NCBI GenBank assembly: GCA_020860755.1
Contig: JAJBTQ010000023.1
Location: forward strand, 1-40,881
Reading direction: 5' to 3'
Length of the DNA stretch: 40,881 bases
Source: Lachnospiraceae bacterium
GTDB lineage: Bacteria; Bacillota; Clostridia; Lachnospirales; Lachnospiraceae
Shown: piece after piece, positions 11,730 to 19,720 of the stretch
Layout: each line of letters opens with the position of its first letter
Numbering within the stretch: position 1 is the stretch's first letter
Program-made: the position numbers and the translations under genes
The notes under the pieces: generated by a model
What the model was told of the DNA's origin: nothing
The model's database searches: none
What the model saw: the letters and a program-made list of their open reading frames with translations, nothing else

Positions 11730-12527
11730 ATGAGATTTTATATTCTGGATACCGGTTATGAGTCTCTCGATAAAAACTGGATGGTCGCCATGTCAACGGT
11801 GGGGACAGAGGATCAGCATCAGGTGGAAAACCAGTGGATCAACATTCCGATCCTGGCTTTTTTGATCGAGACCGATGACGGATATATCCTGTATGATACA
11901 GGGTGCAACCCGGAAGCGATGAACGGATATTGGAGCAATTACCTGCAAAAAGTTTATCCGCTGCATCAGACGAAGGAGCAGCGCCTGGAGAATCAGCTGG
12001 CCCTCTGCGGAGTAAAGCCGGAGGATATCCAGACAGTCATTTTATCCCACCTGCATCTGGACCACGCCGGCAATCTGCAGCTGTTCCCGCACGCGGATAT
12101 CTATGTCCCGTGCGAGGAGTACAAAAACGCCCTGGTAGCGACACACGCCAGTCCGGATCCGGATCAGCACGGGCCCTATGTCAAAGGCGATCTGGAGAGA
12201 CCCGGGCATTATATCCCAGTGACCGAAGAGTTTGAGATCGTCCCCGGCGTCGAAGTGATCAACCTTCCGGGTCATACCGAGGATCTTTTAGGGTTGGTCC
12301 TTCATCTTAAGGGAGGCACCTATATCCTTCCGCAGGACTGCGTCTATACGGAGGAAAATTACGGCCCTCCCGTAAAGTTTTCCGGTTTGGTATATGACTC
12401 GCTCGCTTTCCCGAAATCAATCGAGCGGGTGCGGAAGCTGCAGAAAAAGTACAATGCGAAAGTGATCTTCGCCCACGACTGGGACTTCTTCCAGACATTG
12501 GATCTCGCCCCGAAGTACTATGAGTGA
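11730..12527 (+). CDS. AHL-lactonase-like metallo-beta-lactamase hydrolase
   Basis: A 265-residue cytoplasmic metallo-beta-lactamase fold protein, close in layout to the AiiA/AttM N-acyl-homoserine lactonases. The dinuclear zinc ligands are all present: H107, H109, D111, H112 (SHLHLDHAGN), H182 (LPGHTEDLLG), D203 (PQDCVYTEENYG) and H249 (FAHDWDFF). It could open acyl-homoserine lactones or another lactone or ester; many anaerobes with this fold do not meet AHLs, so the physiological substrate is open. Ribosome site GAGGAAAGGAAGG. It converges with the surface-protein gene, 11 bases apart, without a clear terminator between. Confidence 0.82.
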   Translation: MRFYILDTGYESLDKNWMVAMSTVGTEDQHQVENQWINIPILAFLIETDDGYILYDTGCNPEAMNGYWSNYLQKVYPLHQTKEQRLENQLALCGVKPEDIQTVILSHLHLDHAGNLQLFPHADIYVPCEEYKNALVATHASPDPDQHGPYVKGDLERPGHYIPVTEEFEIVPGVEVINLPGHTEDLLGLVLHLKGGTYILPQDCVYTEENYGPPVKFSGLVYDSLAFPKSIERVRKLQKKYNAKVIFAHDWDFFQTLDLAPKYYE

Positions 12528-12538
12528 GCGATCGCGGA

Positions 12539-15046
12539 TTAGCTGCGCTTCTTCCTCACAGCCAGCAGGATGAGGATGAAAGCCGCCGCGGCCGCGGCGC
12601 CCTCTGCGATCGGAAACCATACGCCGTCACCCGCCAGCTGTTCCAAAGCTGCTGCGGGTGAGGCGATCAACTCCTGAAACGTGTGGATCCCGGGCGGCAC
12701 TCCGTAGTTGATATCCGTAATGTTGCCTGCCAGATCCCTCGCCACCAGCCGGACTTCCTGCTCTTTAAGGGTCCCCTCAAGGGAAAGGCTGCCGGCATAG
12801 TGATTGGCATCTTCCCCGAATTCTGAGATCTCATATGACGCGTTCTCGTCATTCACATACAACTCTATAGATTTTAATCCTATCGTATCGTATACACTGT
12901 ACTCAAAATTCTCCCCTTCCGCGAGGATCCCGTTCTCATCCGTTTTTACAGTTCCCATGATCTCCGGCGCCGTGCTGTCCACCCGGAACAGAATGTCCGT
13001 GCCGGCCGCTTTTGTATTGTCCGCTGTGTTGCCCGCCTCGTCTTTCGAGGAGATGGACATCTTGTAGACCCCGTCTTTTTCAAAGTTTTCTTTTTTGATC
13101 GTATACTGATACGCCTGCCATCCGTGCCGGCCGGCAGACGCCGTTTTTCGTTCACCGGAAGACAAGATCCAGCTGATATCCGTCATCGGTCTGCCATCCT
13201 TTGTGATGTCTAAGAGCATAGACCCTTTCACAAGCCGGTTTACATTGTACTCCGTGATCACCAGATCTTCCTCTATCTTCTGCGTGTATATGCCCCCGTT
13301 TTTAATCAGAGAGATCAGATAATCGCCGAACACATAGACCGACCCGAACCGGTTCACGGAAAAAGTGACCGTTTCTTCCCGTTCGTTCCCCGCCAGATCC
13401 GACACTAGGGCGTGCAGGGTATAGATCCCGTCATTGTCCCGGCTCTTTTCCGGAGAACGACAGATGGCGTTTCCGCCCCGATCGGTCCGCTCACTTTCAG
13501 ACAAAAACTGCTCCGTCACATCGATATCTGTCTCATCCATCCTGGTCCGGGTCAGGGATAACTCGCAGTCGTCGAAATTGGGGTCGTCAAACCGAACGAT
13601 CGGCGCAACCGCTCCCCGATATGCGCACTCATCCTCCACACCCGTGATCTGCACATCTGGCTGCGTCGTATCGATCGTAAATTCCCGCGCTGCCCGGGAG
13701 TCACCGTAGTCTGCCGCTGCGTTTTTATTTCCGGCCAGATCCGTCAGGGAAACGTCAAACGTGTAGTCTCCGTCCCCTGAGAAGCGGACCGTCGCTTTAT
13801 GTATATCCCCGTCGTGCTGCCATGACACGGACGGAGCTGCGCTTTGTCCGTTTTCCGGCACGTATGTCTGTTTAAGATCCACGAGTTCCATATCAAAATT
13901 GTGTTCCGTAATCACGACATATGCGGTGCGCGGCGCGCGGAAATATCGGTCATTCGCAGCCCGGTCATTGTCGTAGCTTACGGTAACCAGCGGTTTTGTA
14001 CGGTCGATGGTGAATGCCTCCCCGTCTGTCGTACCCTCCGCAAATAAAACACCTTCCGAACGGTTTCCCGCCGCATCCACACAGCTCACCGCAAGGGTAT
14101 AATCCCCGTCCGCTTCAAATGTGACTGTGGAAAAATAGACCGGCTCCTCTTCCCCGGTGCCGGTTACGCTTCGTCTCCATCCGCCTGTTACGGGCACGGT
14201 GCCGGCTGAATTTGTGATCGCGACATCCGCGCCGTTCGGGTCAAAATTCCGCTCCTGGACCCGGATCGTCGCCGTCCGGATGCTGCCATAACACGAAGAG
14301 GCAAACGGGGTGTTGTTGTCATAGCTGACCCAGACAACCGGCACATCCGTGTCGATCTCCAGCCGCACCGCATTCTCTTTTACACTGCCCGTGCAGTCTG
14401 TAGTCCTTACGTGAACCGCGACTTCGTTGCTGTGAAGGCGCACCTTGTCAACGGCTACTTTTCCCTCCCAGCGCGTCAGGAATTGATGCGGTTCCGGCTT
14501 TTCGGGTTCCGGCTCATCCGGCTCAGGCTCTTCGGGTATCGGTTCTTCGGGCTCCGGTTCTTCAGGCTCCGGCTCCACAGGCTCCGGTTCCACAGGCTCC
14601 GGTTCTTCGGGCTCTGGCTTCGCAGACTCCTCCACATATCCGTCCTCGTACAGAACCTGCATCTGCGTGACCGCCTCCGGGCGCTGCGACTCGTCCGTGA
14701 TCCAGGCTTCGATCTTGCGGATGCCGAACCCCTCTTCCCCTTCCGCCTGCACAAGAACATCCACAGACACGTCACTGTCCCGATTATAATAGCCATATAC
14801 ATTCGGGATCCCGTTATCAGCCGCCGGAGCAGAGGGCGCCAGCAGAATACTTACCCCCTGATCTTTGGCCTGTACCGGCTGTATATGCATTGCCGGAAGG
14901 ATCAGGCAGACTGCCGCGGCCGCCGCGAGCACCGCCAGCGCGCCCCGTGCTTTCATGTCTCTTTTGTTTCCGCTCCTTTTGCCTGCTGTATTTTTTCTTC
15001 TGACACTTTCTATGTCTTTTCTTCTGCCGCCGCTTTTTCCTCTCAT
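12539..15046 (-). CDS. Large surface protein with Ig-like repeats and E/P-rich stalk
   Basis: An 835-residue exported protein. A basic N-terminus leads to a hydrophobic segment (about 36-55) with a likely cleavage after VQA60. A Glu-Pro repeat spans about 143-187. Several Ig/bacterial-surface-like beta modules follow, marked by recurring phrases: VSYDN, ERNFD or EHNFD, and GDYT with D-A-G-N or DLAGN. The end (about 812-832) is a transmembrane segment followed by RKKRS, so it is anchored on the outside of the membrane. It is the last gene of the PP2C-kinase operon. ATG 15046 has a distant AGAGGGGG; a second ATG (codon 31) is just before the hydrophobic part and may be the real start. Ligand unknown. 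Confidence 0.75.
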   Translation of the reverse strand: MRGKSGGRRKDIESVRRKNTAGKRSGNKRDMKARGALAVLAAAAAVCLILPAMHIQPVQAKDQGVSILLAPSAPAADNGIPNVYGYYNRDSDVSVDVLVQAEGEEGFGIRKIEAWITDESQRPEAVTQMQVLYEDGYVEESAKPEPEEPEPVEPEPVEPEPEEPEPEEPIPEEPEPDEPEPEKPEPHQFLTRWEGKVAVDKVRLHSNEVAVHVRTTDCTGSVKENAVRLEIDTDVPVVWVSYDNNTPFASSCYGSIRTATIRVQERNFDPNGADVAITNSAGTVPVTGGWRRSVTGTGEEEPVYFSTVTFEADGDYTLAVSCVDAAGNRSEGVLFAEGTTDGEAFTIDRTKPLVTVSYDNDRAANDRYFRAPRTAYVVITEHNFDMELVDLKQTYVPENGQSAAPSVSWQHDGDIHKATVRFSGDGDYTFDVSLTDLAGNKNAAADYGDSRAAREFTIDTTQPDVQITGVEDECAYRGAVAPIVRFDDPNFDDCELSLTRTRMDETDIDVTEQFLSESERTDRGGNAICRSPEKSRDNDGIYTLHALVSDLAGNEREETVTFSVNRFGSVYVFGDYLISLIKNGGIYTQKIEEDLVITEYNVNRLVKGSMLLDITKDGRPMTDISWILSSGERKTASAGRHGWQAYQYTIKKENFEKDGVYKMSISSKDEAGNTADNTKAAGTDILFRVDSTAPEIMGTVKTDENGILAEGENFEYSVYDTIGLKSIELYVNDENASYEISEFGEDANHYAGSLSLEGTLKEQEVRLVARDLAGNITDINYGVPPGIHTFQELIASPAAALEQLAGDGVWFPIAEGAAAAAAFILILLAVRKKRS

Positions 15047-15064
15047 TCCTGTTTTAAGCCCCCT

Positions 15065-15301
15065 CTATATCACTTCATCCGTGTGTACGATCATGATGTT
15101 GTCCAGCTGCTTTGTCACATCCTCTGTCTCCTGTTCACTTGCTTCCCGGGCCCTCCGGGCCGATCTCTTTGCCGACCGGCCGGTCAGTTCCCCCAGGATC
15201 TTAAAAATGTCAAGCTGGAGCCAGAGGGCAACCGAGGCCATCCCGAGCACTCCGGCCAGCAAAAAAGAGACCACGGATAAGACTGTCAATGTATCAGCCA
15301 T
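15065..15301 (-). CDS. Small single-pass membrane protein in the kinase operon
   Basis: About 78 residues from the ATG at 15301 (MADTLTVLSVVSFLLAG). One transmembrane helix occupies about 6-30, then a basic stretch (RSAKRSARRARE) and an acidic tail ending HTDEVI. The start overlaps the stop of the kinase gene and has GGAGGAAA in front, so I prefer it to the ATG at 15325. The Ser/Thr-rich, charged cytoplasmic tail could be a substrate or partner of the kinase, which is inference only. No family recognised. Confidence 0.65.
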   Translation of the reverse strand: MADTLTVLSVVSFLLAGVLGMASVALWLQLDIFKILGELTGRSAKRSARRAREASEQETEDVTKQLDNIMIVHTDEVI

Positions 15302-16988
15302 ACATATTTTCCTCCGCATTGTCATAGGCTCTCTCGATCGCGTCCCGATACTCGCTGTAATGCTCTAAGATCTCATCCCGCAAAAGAGTTGACTGCTCCT
15401 TCTGCACGCTCAGCACAACGGTTCTGGCGCGGACCCGGTCAAACAGCCTCAGCACCCGCTCCCGATCTACGCGAACCGCGGCCATGTTCTCCCTCTGGTC
15501 GTACAGCAGCAGAAACACGCTGTTGTACAGCGTCAGCTGGTCGTAAGCGCTCATATCCAGCACGAGGTCGATACTGCCGTCCATCGCCGCGATCAGATCC
15601 AGGTAGCTGCCCTTCGAAGGCTCCTCCTTTCCGACAGGGCCCAGGATATAAGTCCTGTAAAAACTGCAGATCTGATAGTAGCATTCGGACAGGACCGAAT
15701 CCGCGTAGTCCTGCTCCCCGTTCTCATGGTTCGCCGCGAAAAAGGGATATGCTTTCTGGAGCCGGGTGGAAAAGCTGCCATCTTCCTCCCCGTCGGTGTA
15801 ACAGGTAAAGTACAGGATCCCGATGCGGTAATTTAACTCCGCCCCCTCCGCGCCCGCCTCATCTAAGGCATTCCGATTGGCATTGTACAGAGACAAAAAC
15901 GCATCGCTTATCGTCTGGTCAAATATCCCTTCTTCCTCGATCGCTTCGATCATACAGAGATATGCCGTCGTGTCGTCCGGTCGGATCTCAACAGCCTGTG
16001 CATAGTTTTTCAGTTTTTCTTCCAGGGAAAGGGAAGGGATCACGGACACGAGTGTGTCATAGCGATCCCGCCTGATGCGGGTCTCCTCTCCTTTCAGAGA
16101 AAACCCGGTGGTAAAAAGAGCTGCACTTAGAACTGCCGTGGTAAAAAAGATCTTAAGACATCTGCTTTGCCTTTTTCGGTGATCGGCCGTCAGATTTCCG
16201 ATGTGTTCCAGATCATAGAGGAGTTCCTCACAGTTCGGATATCGCTTATCCGGATCGAGCGCCGTGCAGCGGTCGATCACAGCCTCCACCCCCACGGACA
16301 GCTGCGGGTTCCAGTACCGCACCGGACGATACACGTAGCCCGGAGTCCTGGGGCTGACTCCAGTGAGCAGATGGTGCAGTGTCATGCCCAGCGTATAAAT
16401 ATCCGAGCGGGCATCTGTCTGTCGGGATCCGTAATGCTCAGGCGAGGCATAGCCCCTCGTGCCGAGTACCGTCGTGTCCGTGAGACCCTTTGCCTTGTAT
16501 TCCCGGGCAATTCCGAAATCGATGATCTTGATCTGCCCCTCCGAATCGAGCATGATGTTGGCCGGCTTCATGTCCCGGTAGATGATCGGGGGCTTCCGGG
16601 AGTGGAGATAGTTAAGCGCGTCGCAGATCTGCACCGCCCAGTTTAAGACCAGCTTTTCCGGAAGTACTCCGCGTTCTTTTAAGACCCGGTCTAGGGATCT
16701 CCCTTCTATATAATCCATGACGAGATAGATATTCTCCAAATCTTCCGTGATATCCACGATCCGCGGCAGCGCCGGGTGATTCAGCCGCTTCATGATGTCA
16801 GCCTCCGTCAGCAGGCTGTTCTCTATGATCTCCTCATGTTCCCCGTTCCCACACTTTCGGATCTCCTTTACGGCCCACGGCTTACTTATGCGCAGATCCC
16901 AAGCCAGATAAACGACAGACATGCCGCCCGTTCCGATCTGTTTTTGGATCTCGTATTTTTCACCGATCACAGACCCGATCTCAGCCAC
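15294..16988 (-). CDS. Membrane-bound Ser/Thr protein kinase with extracytoplasmic C-terminal domain
   Basis: A 564-residue Hanks-type kinase. The catalytic domain (about 1-265) has the glycine loop GTGGMSVVY, K41, E62, catalytic D139 in IIYRDMKPANIML (a tyrosine replaces the usual His of HRD), DFG at 157-159 and GTRGYASPEHYG. A transmembrane helix lies at about 278-297. The outer part (about 300-564) has no PASTA repeats; it is helical and TPR-like, with repeated short helices. It is translationally coupled to the PP2C gene upstream (8-base overlap) and to the small membrane gene downstream. The pair should control a phosphorylation switch whose outside domain may sense the surface protein or wall. 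Confidence 0.9.
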   Translation of the reverse strand: MAEIGSVIGEKYEIQKQIGTGGMSVVYLAWDLRISKPWAVKEIRKCGNGEHEEIIENSLLTEADIMKRLNHPALPRIVDITEDLENIYLVMDYIEGRSLDRVLKERGVLPEKLVLNWAVQICDALNYLHSRKPPIIYRDMKPANIMLDSEGQIKIIDFGIAREYKAKGLTDTTVLGTRGYASPEHYGSRQTDARSDIYTLGMTLHHLLTGVSPRTPGYVYRPVRYWNPQLSVGVEAVIDRCTALDPDKRYPNCEELLYDLEHIGNLTADHRKRQSRCLKIFFTTAVLSAALFTTGFSLKGEETRIRRDRYDTLVSVIPSLSLEEKLKNYAQAVEIRPDDTTAYLCMIEAIEEEGIFDQTISDAFLSLYNANRNALDEAGAEGAELNYRIGILYFTCYTDGEEDGSFSTRLQKAYPFFAANHENGEQDYADSVLSECYYQICSFYRTYILGPVGKEEPSKGSYLDLIAAMDGSIDLVLDMSAYDQLTLYNSVFLLLYDQRENMAAVRVDRERVLRLFDRVRARTVVLSVQKEQSTLLRDEILEHYSEYRDAIERAYDNAEENMYG

Positions 16989-17778
16989 ATCTTCCCCCTG
17001 CGCGCTTTTGGGACCCGCCCTGTACCCGCACGACGACAGCAGTGATATTGTCCGACTCTCCTCTGGACTTCGCCAGGTCGATCAAGTGCCGCGCTCCGCC
17101 GTGCATAGACTGCCTGCCGTCAAGCAAATCCGGACGGAGCGCGCGCTGCATATCCTCCTCTCTCGTCTCGTGACATAGTCCGTCTGAGCAGAGCAGATAG
17201 ACGCCGGGCCTGGCCTTCCCGTAGATCATCTGCGGCCTGATGGACGGGGAAGCCCCCACGCACTGAAGCAGAACATTTCTCCTCTCGTCCGCCCTTGCCT
17301 GCTCCTCTGTGAGGATGCCTGCACGTACCTCGCGGGCCACCACGGTCTGATCCTCCGTCAACTGCAGCGCATCTGTGTCGATGTGATAGATCCGGGAATC
17401 CCCCACATGGCAGATCAGATAGCTGCCGCCATAAAAAAGGATTCCGGAAAATGTGGTTCCCAGATTGATCTTTTCTTTTTCTCCGTACATCAAAAGTGTC
17501 CGGTTTACATGCGCGAGCATCGCTCCCCACTGCTCCCCGCTCTTTCGCAGATCGGGGAAGGGAGTCTTATTTTGCAGTTCCCGGTCAAACCAGTCGGAGA
17601 CCGCACGGACGGCTGTCGCGCTGGCAAGCTCGCCCCGCGAAAGTCCACCCATCCCGTCACAGACAACGCAAAGCAGTACTTCCCCTTCCGGCGTGTCCGC
17701 ATGGCGGATCAGCAAGCTGTCCTGGTTGGTCTTCCTGTGATTCCCGGTGTCGGTATCAGCCGTAGCCATAAACCTCAT
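16981..17778 (-). CDS. PP2C-family protein phosphatase
   Basis: A 265-residue Mn2+/Mg2+-dependent Ser/Thr phosphatase. The metal-binding motifs are present: D8/D10 with GNHRKTNQD20, CDGMGG at 40-45, HVGDSRIYHI in the middle, SDGL and ESDNITAVVV near the end. It lacks membrane segments, so it acts in the cytoplasm, most simply by reversing the kinase encoded next to it. The genes overlap by 8 bases. AAGGGG precedes the ATG at 17778. It is the first gene of the four-gene operon; the promoter is probably in 17779-17900 but I cannot place it surely. Confidence 0.92.
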   Translation of the reverse strand: MRFMATADTDTGNHRKTNQDSLLIRHADTPEGEVLLCVVCDGMGGLSRGELASATAVRAVSDWFDRELQNKTPFPDLRKSGEQWGAMLAHVNRTLLMYGEKEKINLGTTFSGILFYGGSYLICHVGDSRIYHIDTDALQLTEDQTVVAREVRAGILTEEQARADERRNVLLQCVGASPSIRPQMIYGKARPGVYLLCSDGLCHETREEDMQRALRPDLLDGRQSMHGGARHLIDLAKSRGESDNITAVVVRVQGGSQKRAGGRCG

Positions 17779-18001: not shown

Positions 18002-19720
18002 TCAAAGGCGCTTTTGTGCCAGCTTAAGACGTGCACGGATCCGGTCCGTCCCCATCACCTGCATGATCTGATACAGGTCCGGCGTATTCCTGCGGCCGGT
18101 CAGTCCGACCCGAAGCGCGGTGCTCACATCGCCCACATGTCCCGGCCAGGCCTCCTTGTCCTGCTTCCAGATTTTCACTTCACGGGCATAGCCGATCCGC
18201 TCGGCGAGATCCTTCATCCGCTCGAACCACTGCCCATTGTCGTCCGCTGCGTTATAATATTCATCTACATACAGCGTAAAAATTTTTGTCAGTGTCTCCT
18301 TATCGGAGATCACCTGATACTCGTACTCTATGTCAGTGCTTTCAAACACATCGTCATACATATAGAAGATATAGTCCCTGACATCGGACCATCTCCCGAT
18401 GTCCTTCCGCTTCTTTTTGATATCGGCGCCGCGCTCGATGCCGAACACCCGGAGGGAATAGTCCTCGTCCTGAAGCATAGCGCAAAGCACGTCGTCGTAG
18501 CGCTTTGCCCAGGCATACACATCGTTGTATACCTTCTGCGCGGAAAAACGCGAGATGACATTTTTGGATACGTCGATCAGCTTATCCATGTCGAACAGCG
18601 CCCCCTCCGTTGTGCTCATCTTTTTCCATGCAAAGGGGAAGTCGTACAGATCCGCGTTCTCGTTATTGCGCCTCCACATCTCAAAATCGGAGTTCGCGAT
18701 GGTCATCAGATACTCTTTTACGGACTCGGCGGGGATCCCTTCCTCGTGGTAGTAGCTGACTGCCGCCTCCGGATCCTTCCGCTTGCTGATCTTGCGCTTG
18801 GTCATGACCGGCTCTCCGCTCTCGTCGAGGACCGGCTGCCCTTCCGCATCCGTCTTGACATCATTTTTCAGCATCGGAGCGTAATGGCAGTACTTCGGCG
18901 CCTTGAATCCGAGTGCATAAAATAACTCTAAGTGGAGCGGAACCGAAGTAAACCACTCGTTTGAGCGAATCACGTGGGTCGTTCTCATCAAATGATCGTC
19001 CACTGCGTGCGCAAAGTGGTAGGTCGGAAGCCCATCGCCCTTTATAAGGACAACGTCCATGATGTTCTGCGGCATCTCAGTCTTGCCCTTGACCAGATCC
19101 TTTACCGTGATCTTGCCGTCAGGCTTTCCGGTCGACTTAAACCGAATGACATAGGGGTCACCGTTTTGGATGCGCTTTGCGGCTTCATCCTCGGGATAGT
19201 CCCGATAGATCGCCCACTCGCCGTAGTATCCTATCGTGTCAAGGCCGGCCTCCTCCTGCTTTTTCCGGAGATCGGCCAGATCCTCCTCTGTGGCAAAACA
19301 GGGGTAGGCCCGGTCGTTTTCGATGAGATACTTCGCATATGCCTCATAGATCTCTTGGCGCAGTGTCTGCCGGTATGGCCCATAGGCGCCGACAGACTCT
19401 GTCTCTCCAGTCATACCCTCATCAAATGCGATGTCAAAGTCACGCATGGCATCGAGGATTCCTGCAACGCCGTTTTCGATCGTTCTTTTTTGGTCCGTGT
19501 CCTCGATCCGGAGGATCAGCACACCCTTCGACTGCTTCACGAGCAGAGTCTCTATGATACACTGTTCCAGCGCCCCGATGTGGACAAAACCGGTCGGGCT
19601 GGGCGCAAAACGCGTCACTACCGCCCCCTCCGGGAGCTCCCGTGCCGGATATTTTTCTTCATAATAAGAGACATCCTCCGCCCCCGGAAAGATCAGATCC
19701 GCAAGTTCCTGTTTATTCAT
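18002..19720 (-). CDS. gltX: Glutamate--tRNA ligase
   Basis: A 572-residue class I aminoacyl-tRNA synthetase. The HIGH element is H47-I-G-A in RFAPSPTGFVHIGAL and the KMSKS element is KRKISKRK at 308-315. FAHAVDDHLMRTTHVIRSNEW is shared by the family. It is longer than the usual 480-500-residue GltX and of the clostridial form. The absence of a full GlnRS signature and the clostridial context suggest the non-discriminating or discriminating status depends on gatCAB elsewhere. It follows trxA and a small gene on the same strand. Confidence 0.92.
   Translation of the reverse strand: MNKQELADLIFPGAEDVSYYEEKYPARELPEGAVVTRFAPSPTGFVHIGALEQCIIETLLVKQSKGVLILRIEDTDQKRTIENGVAGILDAMRDFDIAFDEGMTGETESVGAYGPYRQTLRQEIYEAYAKYLIENDRAYPCFATEEDLADLRKKQEEAGLDTIGYYGEWAIYRDYPEDEAAKRIQNGDPYVIRFKSTGKPDGKITVKDLVKGKTEMPQNIMDVVLIKGDGLPTYHFAHAVDDHLMRTTHVIRSNEWFTSVPLHLELFYALGFKAPKYCHYAPMLKNDVKTDAEGQPVLDESGEPVMTKRKISKRKDPEAAVSYYHEEGIPAESVKEYLMTIANSDFEMWRRNNENADLYDFPFAWKKMSTTEGALFDMDKLIDVSKNVISRFSAQKVYNDVYAWAKRYDDVLCAMLQDEDYSLRVFGIERGADIKKKRKDIGRWSDVRDYIFYMYDDVFESTDIEYEYQVISDKETLTKIFTLYVDEYYNAADDNGQWFERMKDLAERIGYAREVKIWKQDKEAWPGHVGDVSTALRVGLTGRRNTPDLYQIMQVMGTDRIRARLKLAQKRL

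Follow-up and report, generated by a model that had tools for sequence, protein, structure and literature searches.

The window considered here, a 40,881-nucleotide stretch of DNA, is contig C7 (JAJBTQ010000023.1) of a metagenome-assembled genome (MAG; GCA_020860755.1) of a Lachnospiraceae bacterium, which is 79.25% complete and comprises 1.72 Mb on 36 contigs. It carries a four-gene phosphorylation and surface module between positions 12539 and 17778. All four open reading frames (ORFs) are present where the initial annotation placed them, on the minus strand. A PP2C-type phosphatase of the PPM kind (16981..17778; PP2C_2 in Pfam, 4.5e-10), with the metal-site motifs DGMGG, GDSR, SDG and SDN visible in its sequence, is followed by a membrane Ser/Thr kinase with a GTG start (15294..16988; Pkinase in Pfam, 1.3e-52), a small protein of 78 amino acids (aa) with a single transmembrane (TM) helix (15065..15301; alignment and family profile) and a secreted, membrane-anchored Ig-like protein (12539..15046; Big_13, 1.1e-16, in four stretches). 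As initially described, the genes are tightly packed: the PP2C and kinase genes overlap by 8 bp, the end of the kinase gene overlaps the start of the small gene at 15301 by another 8 bp, and the large anchored surface protein begins after a gap of 18 bp. The small gene was listed as 15065-15325 (86 aa), which applies if translation begins at the upstream ATG (15325); the start at 15301, preceded by GGAGG, is likelier. The surface protein has hydrophobic stretches at both its N- and C-terminal ends, a Glu-Pro stretch, a C-terminal TM helix and a RKKRS sequence; no LPXTG was seen in it. The Glu-Pro stretch had been taken for a stalk. It is present, but separates two parts of the protein close to the N-terminus; at locus L153 the orthologue has Glu/Ser-rich acidic stretches in its place.

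The kinase consists of a cytoplasmic kinase domain, one TM helix and an outer helical domain (the outer part, whose N-terminal end is formed by the TM helix, spans 15297..16160 on the minus strand). Residues K41, E62, D139, N144 and D157 are invariant or nearly so among 15 relatives. The kinase lacks PASTA repeats, as had been noted: Pfam gave no PASTA match, and the NCBIfam model PknB_PASTA_kin scored 224.5 bits against a cut-off of 450. The YRD that stands in place of HRD is real, but it is the norm of the family, found in 105 of the 113 kinase ORFs over 150 bits (a count that includes duplicates, as does that over 74 FHA proteins below), and an impaired kinase was rejected on this ground. 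The activation-loop sequence T..LGT (101/113) may be part of the phosphorylation code discussed below, a remark only, as it may be a general kinase feature. The outer part had been called a novel helical domain. Its structure model is all helical (predicted local distance difference test 90.1, predicted template modelling score 0.82), its profile finds tetratricopeptide repeat (TPR) chains at 1.4e-29, and in structure comparison PilW (9.5) and PilF (9.2) appear among designed helical repeats. The outer domain is thus TPR-like and not a new fold, and the modelled likeness to PilW and PilF can be common arrangement only. The same genome has a separate PASTA kinase/PP2C pair on contig C33, beside genes for RsgA and Rpe; the module is therefore distinct from the prkC-prpC locus, in agreement with the initial annotation. 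A third kinase locus lies on contig C9 (L039:7964-12034), with a PP2C, a multi-zinc-ribbon protein and a TPR-repeat kinase whose outer part is unrelated to that of the window kinase.

To place the module among its relatives, we searched 150 genomes of the family with the outer part of the kinase. Matches were found in 16/150, the window's own genome included, and a profile built from 15 of those 16 matched 60/150 at E ≤ 1e-3, many of the weak matches covering only the TPR-like stretch. Strong matches (E under 1e-25) occur in 29/150 genomes, again including the window's own, and all 29 neighbourhoods were examined. Further loci were the best 80 of at least 573 confirmed kinase matches and 13 loci from the window's genus. 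The collection holds 117 non-duplicate kinase rows, and 82 of these, the window included, are flanked on either side by 3.5 kb or more. Rows L070, L108, L132 and L127 were dropped as copies of L025, L040, L027 and L032, and L033 is a weak family member. All relatives were found via the kinase, so the counts describe kinase loci, and the module genes in them were called by purpose-built profiles from few seeds.

The four genes are linked in relatives, so that the unlinkage named in advance as a refutation was not what we found. They stand in the order PP2C, kinase, small protein and surface protein on one strand in 59/82 loci, and a chance neighbourhood is rejected by these counts. A PP2C gene is beside the kinase in 75/82, the small protein is present in 77/82 and a relative of the surface protein is in place in 66/82. 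A gene for a DUF6382-FHA protein lies upstream in 55/82, and 46/82 have all five genes. In all seven of the loci that lack PP2C (7/82) the surface gene follows the kinase, which fits a partnership of the two proteins; their retention together suggests such a partnership. This co-retention would agree with the earlier proposal, which had the outer kinase domain sense the wall or the surface protein. Between the small and surface genes, some loci have a protein of 145-168 aa with three or four predicted TM helices (L037:10944-11432; also at this position in L041, L047, L051, L062, L063, L064, L067, L071 and L096). The L037 protein, the only one tried, had no match in Pfam.

The gene list is that of a group of type VII secretion system (T7SS) loci, and the module is accordingly not the undescribed system for which it had been taken. 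The T7SS subtypes d, e and j were proposed from gene neighbourhood (PMC11217815). T7SSe is described with a phosphatase (TseF), a kinase (TseD), TseH and TseK, an Ig-like protein (TseI) and a DUF6382-FHA protein (TseJ); TseH and TseK each have one TM helix and a short unstructured cytoplasmic stretch, and the Ig-like I protein of the d subtype has a signal peptide and a C-terminal TM helix (PMC11217815). T7SSj is without H; it has F, D, I, J and K, of which D bears a TPR domain (PMC11217815). By gene list, the window shares the PPM phosphatase (TseF/TsjF-like), the kinase with a helical outer part (TseD/TsjD-like), the single-TM protein with a cytoplasmic tail (in the place of TseH or TsjK) and the Ig-like protein (TseI/TsjI-like). 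Relatives of the module also have the DUF6382-FHA protein (J), YukD, WXG100 and an EssC-type motor, whereas no gene for a motor, WXG100, YukD or an FHA protein lies near the module in the window (its own genome was not searched for YukD). The set is the putative signalling-and-surface block of the T7SSd/e/j group, as matched by published descriptions rather than by aligned sequences. The subtype is ambiguous, since in the published description TsjD has a TPR domain but T7SSj is without TseH, and T7SSe has both TseH and TseK.

The neighbourhoods of the relatives are of three kinds. An FtsK-domain motor and WXG100 lie beside the kinase relatives in L036 and in genome G157 (L157, L166, L167), T7SS profile matches are near the kinase in L074, L075, L115 and L134, and YukD is beside the relative in L058 and scores below the cut-off in L152. 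EssC or WXG100 markers occur at no fewer than 10/82 loci and the Tad markers DUF5702 or A24 at no fewer than 14/82; no locus (0/82) has both. These labels are lower bounds, with flanks mostly of 10 kb or less, and within such limited flanks 58/82 loci carry neither marker. Genomes G073, G130 and G008 have a Tad-type ATPase about 12-13 kb upstream of the kinase; Pfam finds T2SSE and T2SSF in G073 and G130, a TadZ domain in G130, and an A24 peptidase and DUF5702 in G073. Tad genes also adjoin T7SSg and T7SSh in the published loci (Garrett, Higginson and Palmer, 2024; PMC11217815). DUF6382 was found in 144/150 family genomes, and of the 29 genomes in which both were sought, 25 have its best match about 5-9 kb from a T2SSE match on the same contig, so the DUF6382-FHA protein belongs to Tad loci widely. 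That this block also occurs in Tad-pilus loci, and in genomes that show neither machine, suggests a modular signalling half that is more widespread than the matching secretion system. The earlier description of the set as self-contained thus holds for orphans of the window's type only, given the frequency of the FHA gene and of T7SS and Tad markers elsewhere. In G151 (97% complete; L152, L165, contig C41) the module is accompanied by another FHA protein, a TadZ-like ATPase, an LXG protein, a YukD-like protein and a 157-aa stub that matches the N-terminal part of an EssC. That genome has one FtsK match and no WXG100 match; L152 was labelled T7SS by hand, though no motor was found in its genome.

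The cytoplasmic tails of the small proteins carry a repeated threonine motif. In 96 tails from 106 loci, with expectations obtained by shuffling, T..L occurs 426 times against 92.6 expected (standard deviation 8.7) and S..L 73 times against 72, and ET.[VILAM]L occurs 150 times against 2.9. T.L is also raised (189 against 92.9), since ETTVL would yield it; the excess peaks at +3, for Thr and not for Ser. The same is seen in nine representatives with less than 42% kinase identity (T..L 40 against 11.5; S..L 5 against 7.6). Per 1000 residues, [ED]T.[VILAM]L is found 11.1 times in the tails and 0.19 times in other ORFs of at least 300 aa. FHA domains typically bind phosphothreonine specifically and have a preference at the +3 position. 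Neighbouring FHA proteins have the motif as well, with E, D or N in first place: the 70-residue stretches ahead of their FHA domains hold 72 in all against 1.85 expected, and S..L is not raised there (15 against 20.5). Together these patterns suggest that the tail may serve as a scaffold for phosphothreonine, which the kinase would write, FHA would read and PP2C would erase. The window tail has a single T..L (TKQL), which is not of the E-T-x-V-L kind, and no ladder of the latter. The initial annotation had the small protein relay or receive phosphate. Receipt is likely from the ladders of relatives, and a relay is doubtful in the window, where the ladder is lacking. The window tail keeps its C-terminal IMIVHTDEVI. 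A hydrophobic stretch and H-T-[DE]-E-[VI]-I are kept at the C-termini of small proteins (those of the window, L034, L037 and L028, for example) even without the ladder, and an H[TS] pattern occurs in 58/96 tails.

The window copy is best described as an orphaned block and is not to be classed as T7SS, because its genome has no match to an EssC-type motor, WXG100, DUF6382 or T2SSE. The single FtsK_SpoIIIE match in the genome is an 879-aa frame of FtsK size; PF06013 (WXG100) has 0 matches in it (G000), against 8/20 genomes of the genus; DUF6382, found in 18/20 genomes of the genus, has no match; and T2SSE has none above the cut-off. No T7SS machine gene lies within 23.9 kb upstream or 15.3 kb downstream of the window kinase. 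The place usually held by the FHA gene is occupied by a gltX-like gene (18002..19720, minus strand; tRNA-synt_1c, 3.8e-60). This gene is the upstream synteny anchor: both the window module and that of L153 lie just downstream of gltX, the matching gene in L153 being of 575 aa. In a FastTree phylogeny of the kinases, which has long branches and of which only well supported joins were used, the window kinase is sister to L060 with a support of 94 (L060 is identical to L153 of genome G162; L153 and L163 were dropped from the tree as copies of L060 and L099). The 29-row clade that holds the window kinase mixes T7SS loci with loci where none was seen. L153 keeps the orthologous surface gene and has no PP2C; a run of N covers its small-gene region.

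We consider it moderately probable that the module is the signalling-and-surface block of a T7SSe/T7SSj-type locus, here apart from the motor and without the usual FHA gene, and that in full systems it works as a phosphorylation switch. Its footing in sequence is the family, the gene order, the three kinds of neighbourhood, the TPR-like outer domain and the motif; the steps of the circuit we infer. The outer solenoid would touch the Ig-like surface protein in the envelope, and this contact would activate the kinase, which would add phosphate to threonines in the single-pass protein's tail. Where the system is complete, the phosphorylated tail would capture the DUF6382-FHA protein at the membrane, a protein that may be held by its own ETTVL in phosphorylated form, in the way that ETTS holds GarA. 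The captured FHA protein would license the T7SS or Tad machine, and PP2C would reset the switch. Because only the sensor, kinase, phosphatase, shortened tail and surface protein would remain in the window, its output is probably local, on the surface protein or another target, rather than secretion.

Several points weigh against this proposal. With no ladder in the window tail and no DUF6382 in the genome, the circuit cannot run here as described. The pre-FHA motif is present in 45, not all, of the 74 proteins with a recognisable FHA core. The surface gene is not in place in 16/82 loci, all of which retain PP2C and the small gene, and the predicted contact of kinase and surface protein is drawn from gene order. 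The likeness to the Tse and Tsj proteins is one of description, the published sequences not having been aligned, and the MAG is only 79% complete. An adjacent FHA gene goes with a richer ladder in raw comparisons (p 0.012, 70 against 26 tails; p 0.025, 62 against 23), but this association is absent when relatedness is taken into account (independent pairs, median p 0.69), and loss of the FHA gene as the explanation for loss of the ladder was dropped.

The module could instead be a general envelope-stress kinase unit of the PrkC/PrpC kind, its likeness to T7SS loci reflecting shared ancestry without shared logic. The many loci with neither T7SS nor Tad markers would agree with this, as would the kinase and surface protein that can stand alone (L024, L026, L049, L072, L154). 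We think it unlikely, because the kinase is without PASTA, the Thr-specific +3 ladder is common to tails and FHA partners, and the genome already has its PASTA pair. Somewhat more unlikely still, the module would serve an ordinary T7SSe/j whose machine genes lie in the missing fifth of the genome. The incompleteness of the MAG leaves room for such genes, the clade to which the window kinase belongs includes T7SS loci, and FtsK frames of EssC size occur in nine genomes of the genus (G150, G152, G153, G154, G157, G160, G163, G167 and G168). This is countered by the sister G162, which has the same synteny, is 94% complete and likewise has one FtsK match and no WXG100 (0 matches), by the bare flanks of the window kinase, and by gltX in place of the FHA gene expected next to PP2C. 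That the window copy is a decaying remnant without present function is improbable: the missing FHA neighbour, the shortness of the tail, a sister locus without PP2C and, elsewhere in the genome, a 68-aa FHA fragment in disrupted surroundings speak for decay, but all four frames are open, the key residues of the kinase and the overlapping starts are kept, and the kinase and surface gene are retained at one locus in two species.

A wider extension of the proposed switch is more tentative. The module may be a portable Gram-positive phospho-code, in which a contact-sensing kinase, with its TPR-like outer domain, and its Ig-like surface partner would write E-pT-x-V-L on a dedicated membrane tail. 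This tail would compete with the DUF6382-FHA protein's own motif to license whichever T7SS or Tad machine is plugged in, and the module could persist without a machine, as in the window, as a stand-alone surface sensor. The consulted sections of PMC11217815 report no motif ladder in TseH or TseK and no copies of the block that are linked to Tad genes or free of a motor. Neither the ladder nor the block's occurrence beyond T7SS was found in print; the ladder, with its counterpart in the FHA proteins, is apparently new. In its specificity for Thr and for a Leu at +3, the repeated motif points to a probable acceptor, together with a probable writer, reader and eraser, and peptides offer a way to test the switch.

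Other features of the window and genome were recorded. GC content is 0.54-0.59 across the module and 0.46-0.56 in the flanking kilobases, which gives no sign of a recent transfer, and this was rejected. A promoter search before the PP2C gene gave one match where 0.9 were expected, and one terminator-like site was seen where 0.3 were expected; no claim is based on either. A metallo-beta-lactamase-fold protein resembling AHL lactonases is encoded convergently with the surface gene (11730-12527, plus strand), and on it the AhlS model scored 207 bits against a cut-off of 475. Contig C33 encodes a 1396-aa adhesin-like protein with thioester, SpaA and T-Q ester-bond domains (L038:3578-7768). The FHA fragment mentioned above lies on contig C29 (L138:10347-10553) with only short frames around it, and is possibly a remnant of a DUF6382-FHA gene.

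The module can be compared with three further systems, of which PpkA-TssL-Fha and GarA are precedents for the proposed switch. PrkC/PknB with PrpC likewise pairs a Hanks-type membrane kinase with a PP2C partner; the window kinase differs in having no PASTA, a TPR-like outer domain and other neighbours. In the type VI secretion system (T6SS), the PpkA-TssL-Fha threonine phosphorylation pathway, as described in PMC3953482, similarly has a membrane kinase, a membrane phosphothreonine acceptor and an FHA reader that controls an envelope machine. Machine and cell type are different, there are no T6SS genes at the module, and a single threonine of TssL contrasts with the repeated motifs here. In GarA, ETTS is bound, once phosphorylated, by the protein's own FHA domain (PMC5448819). 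The GarA/OdhI switch shares with the DUF6382-FHA protein an E-T-T motif outside the FHA domain, which the latter's own FHA may likewise bind. GarA, by the published account, controls metabolic enzymes, whereas the motif considered here recurs, in addition, on the tail of a distinct membrane protein.

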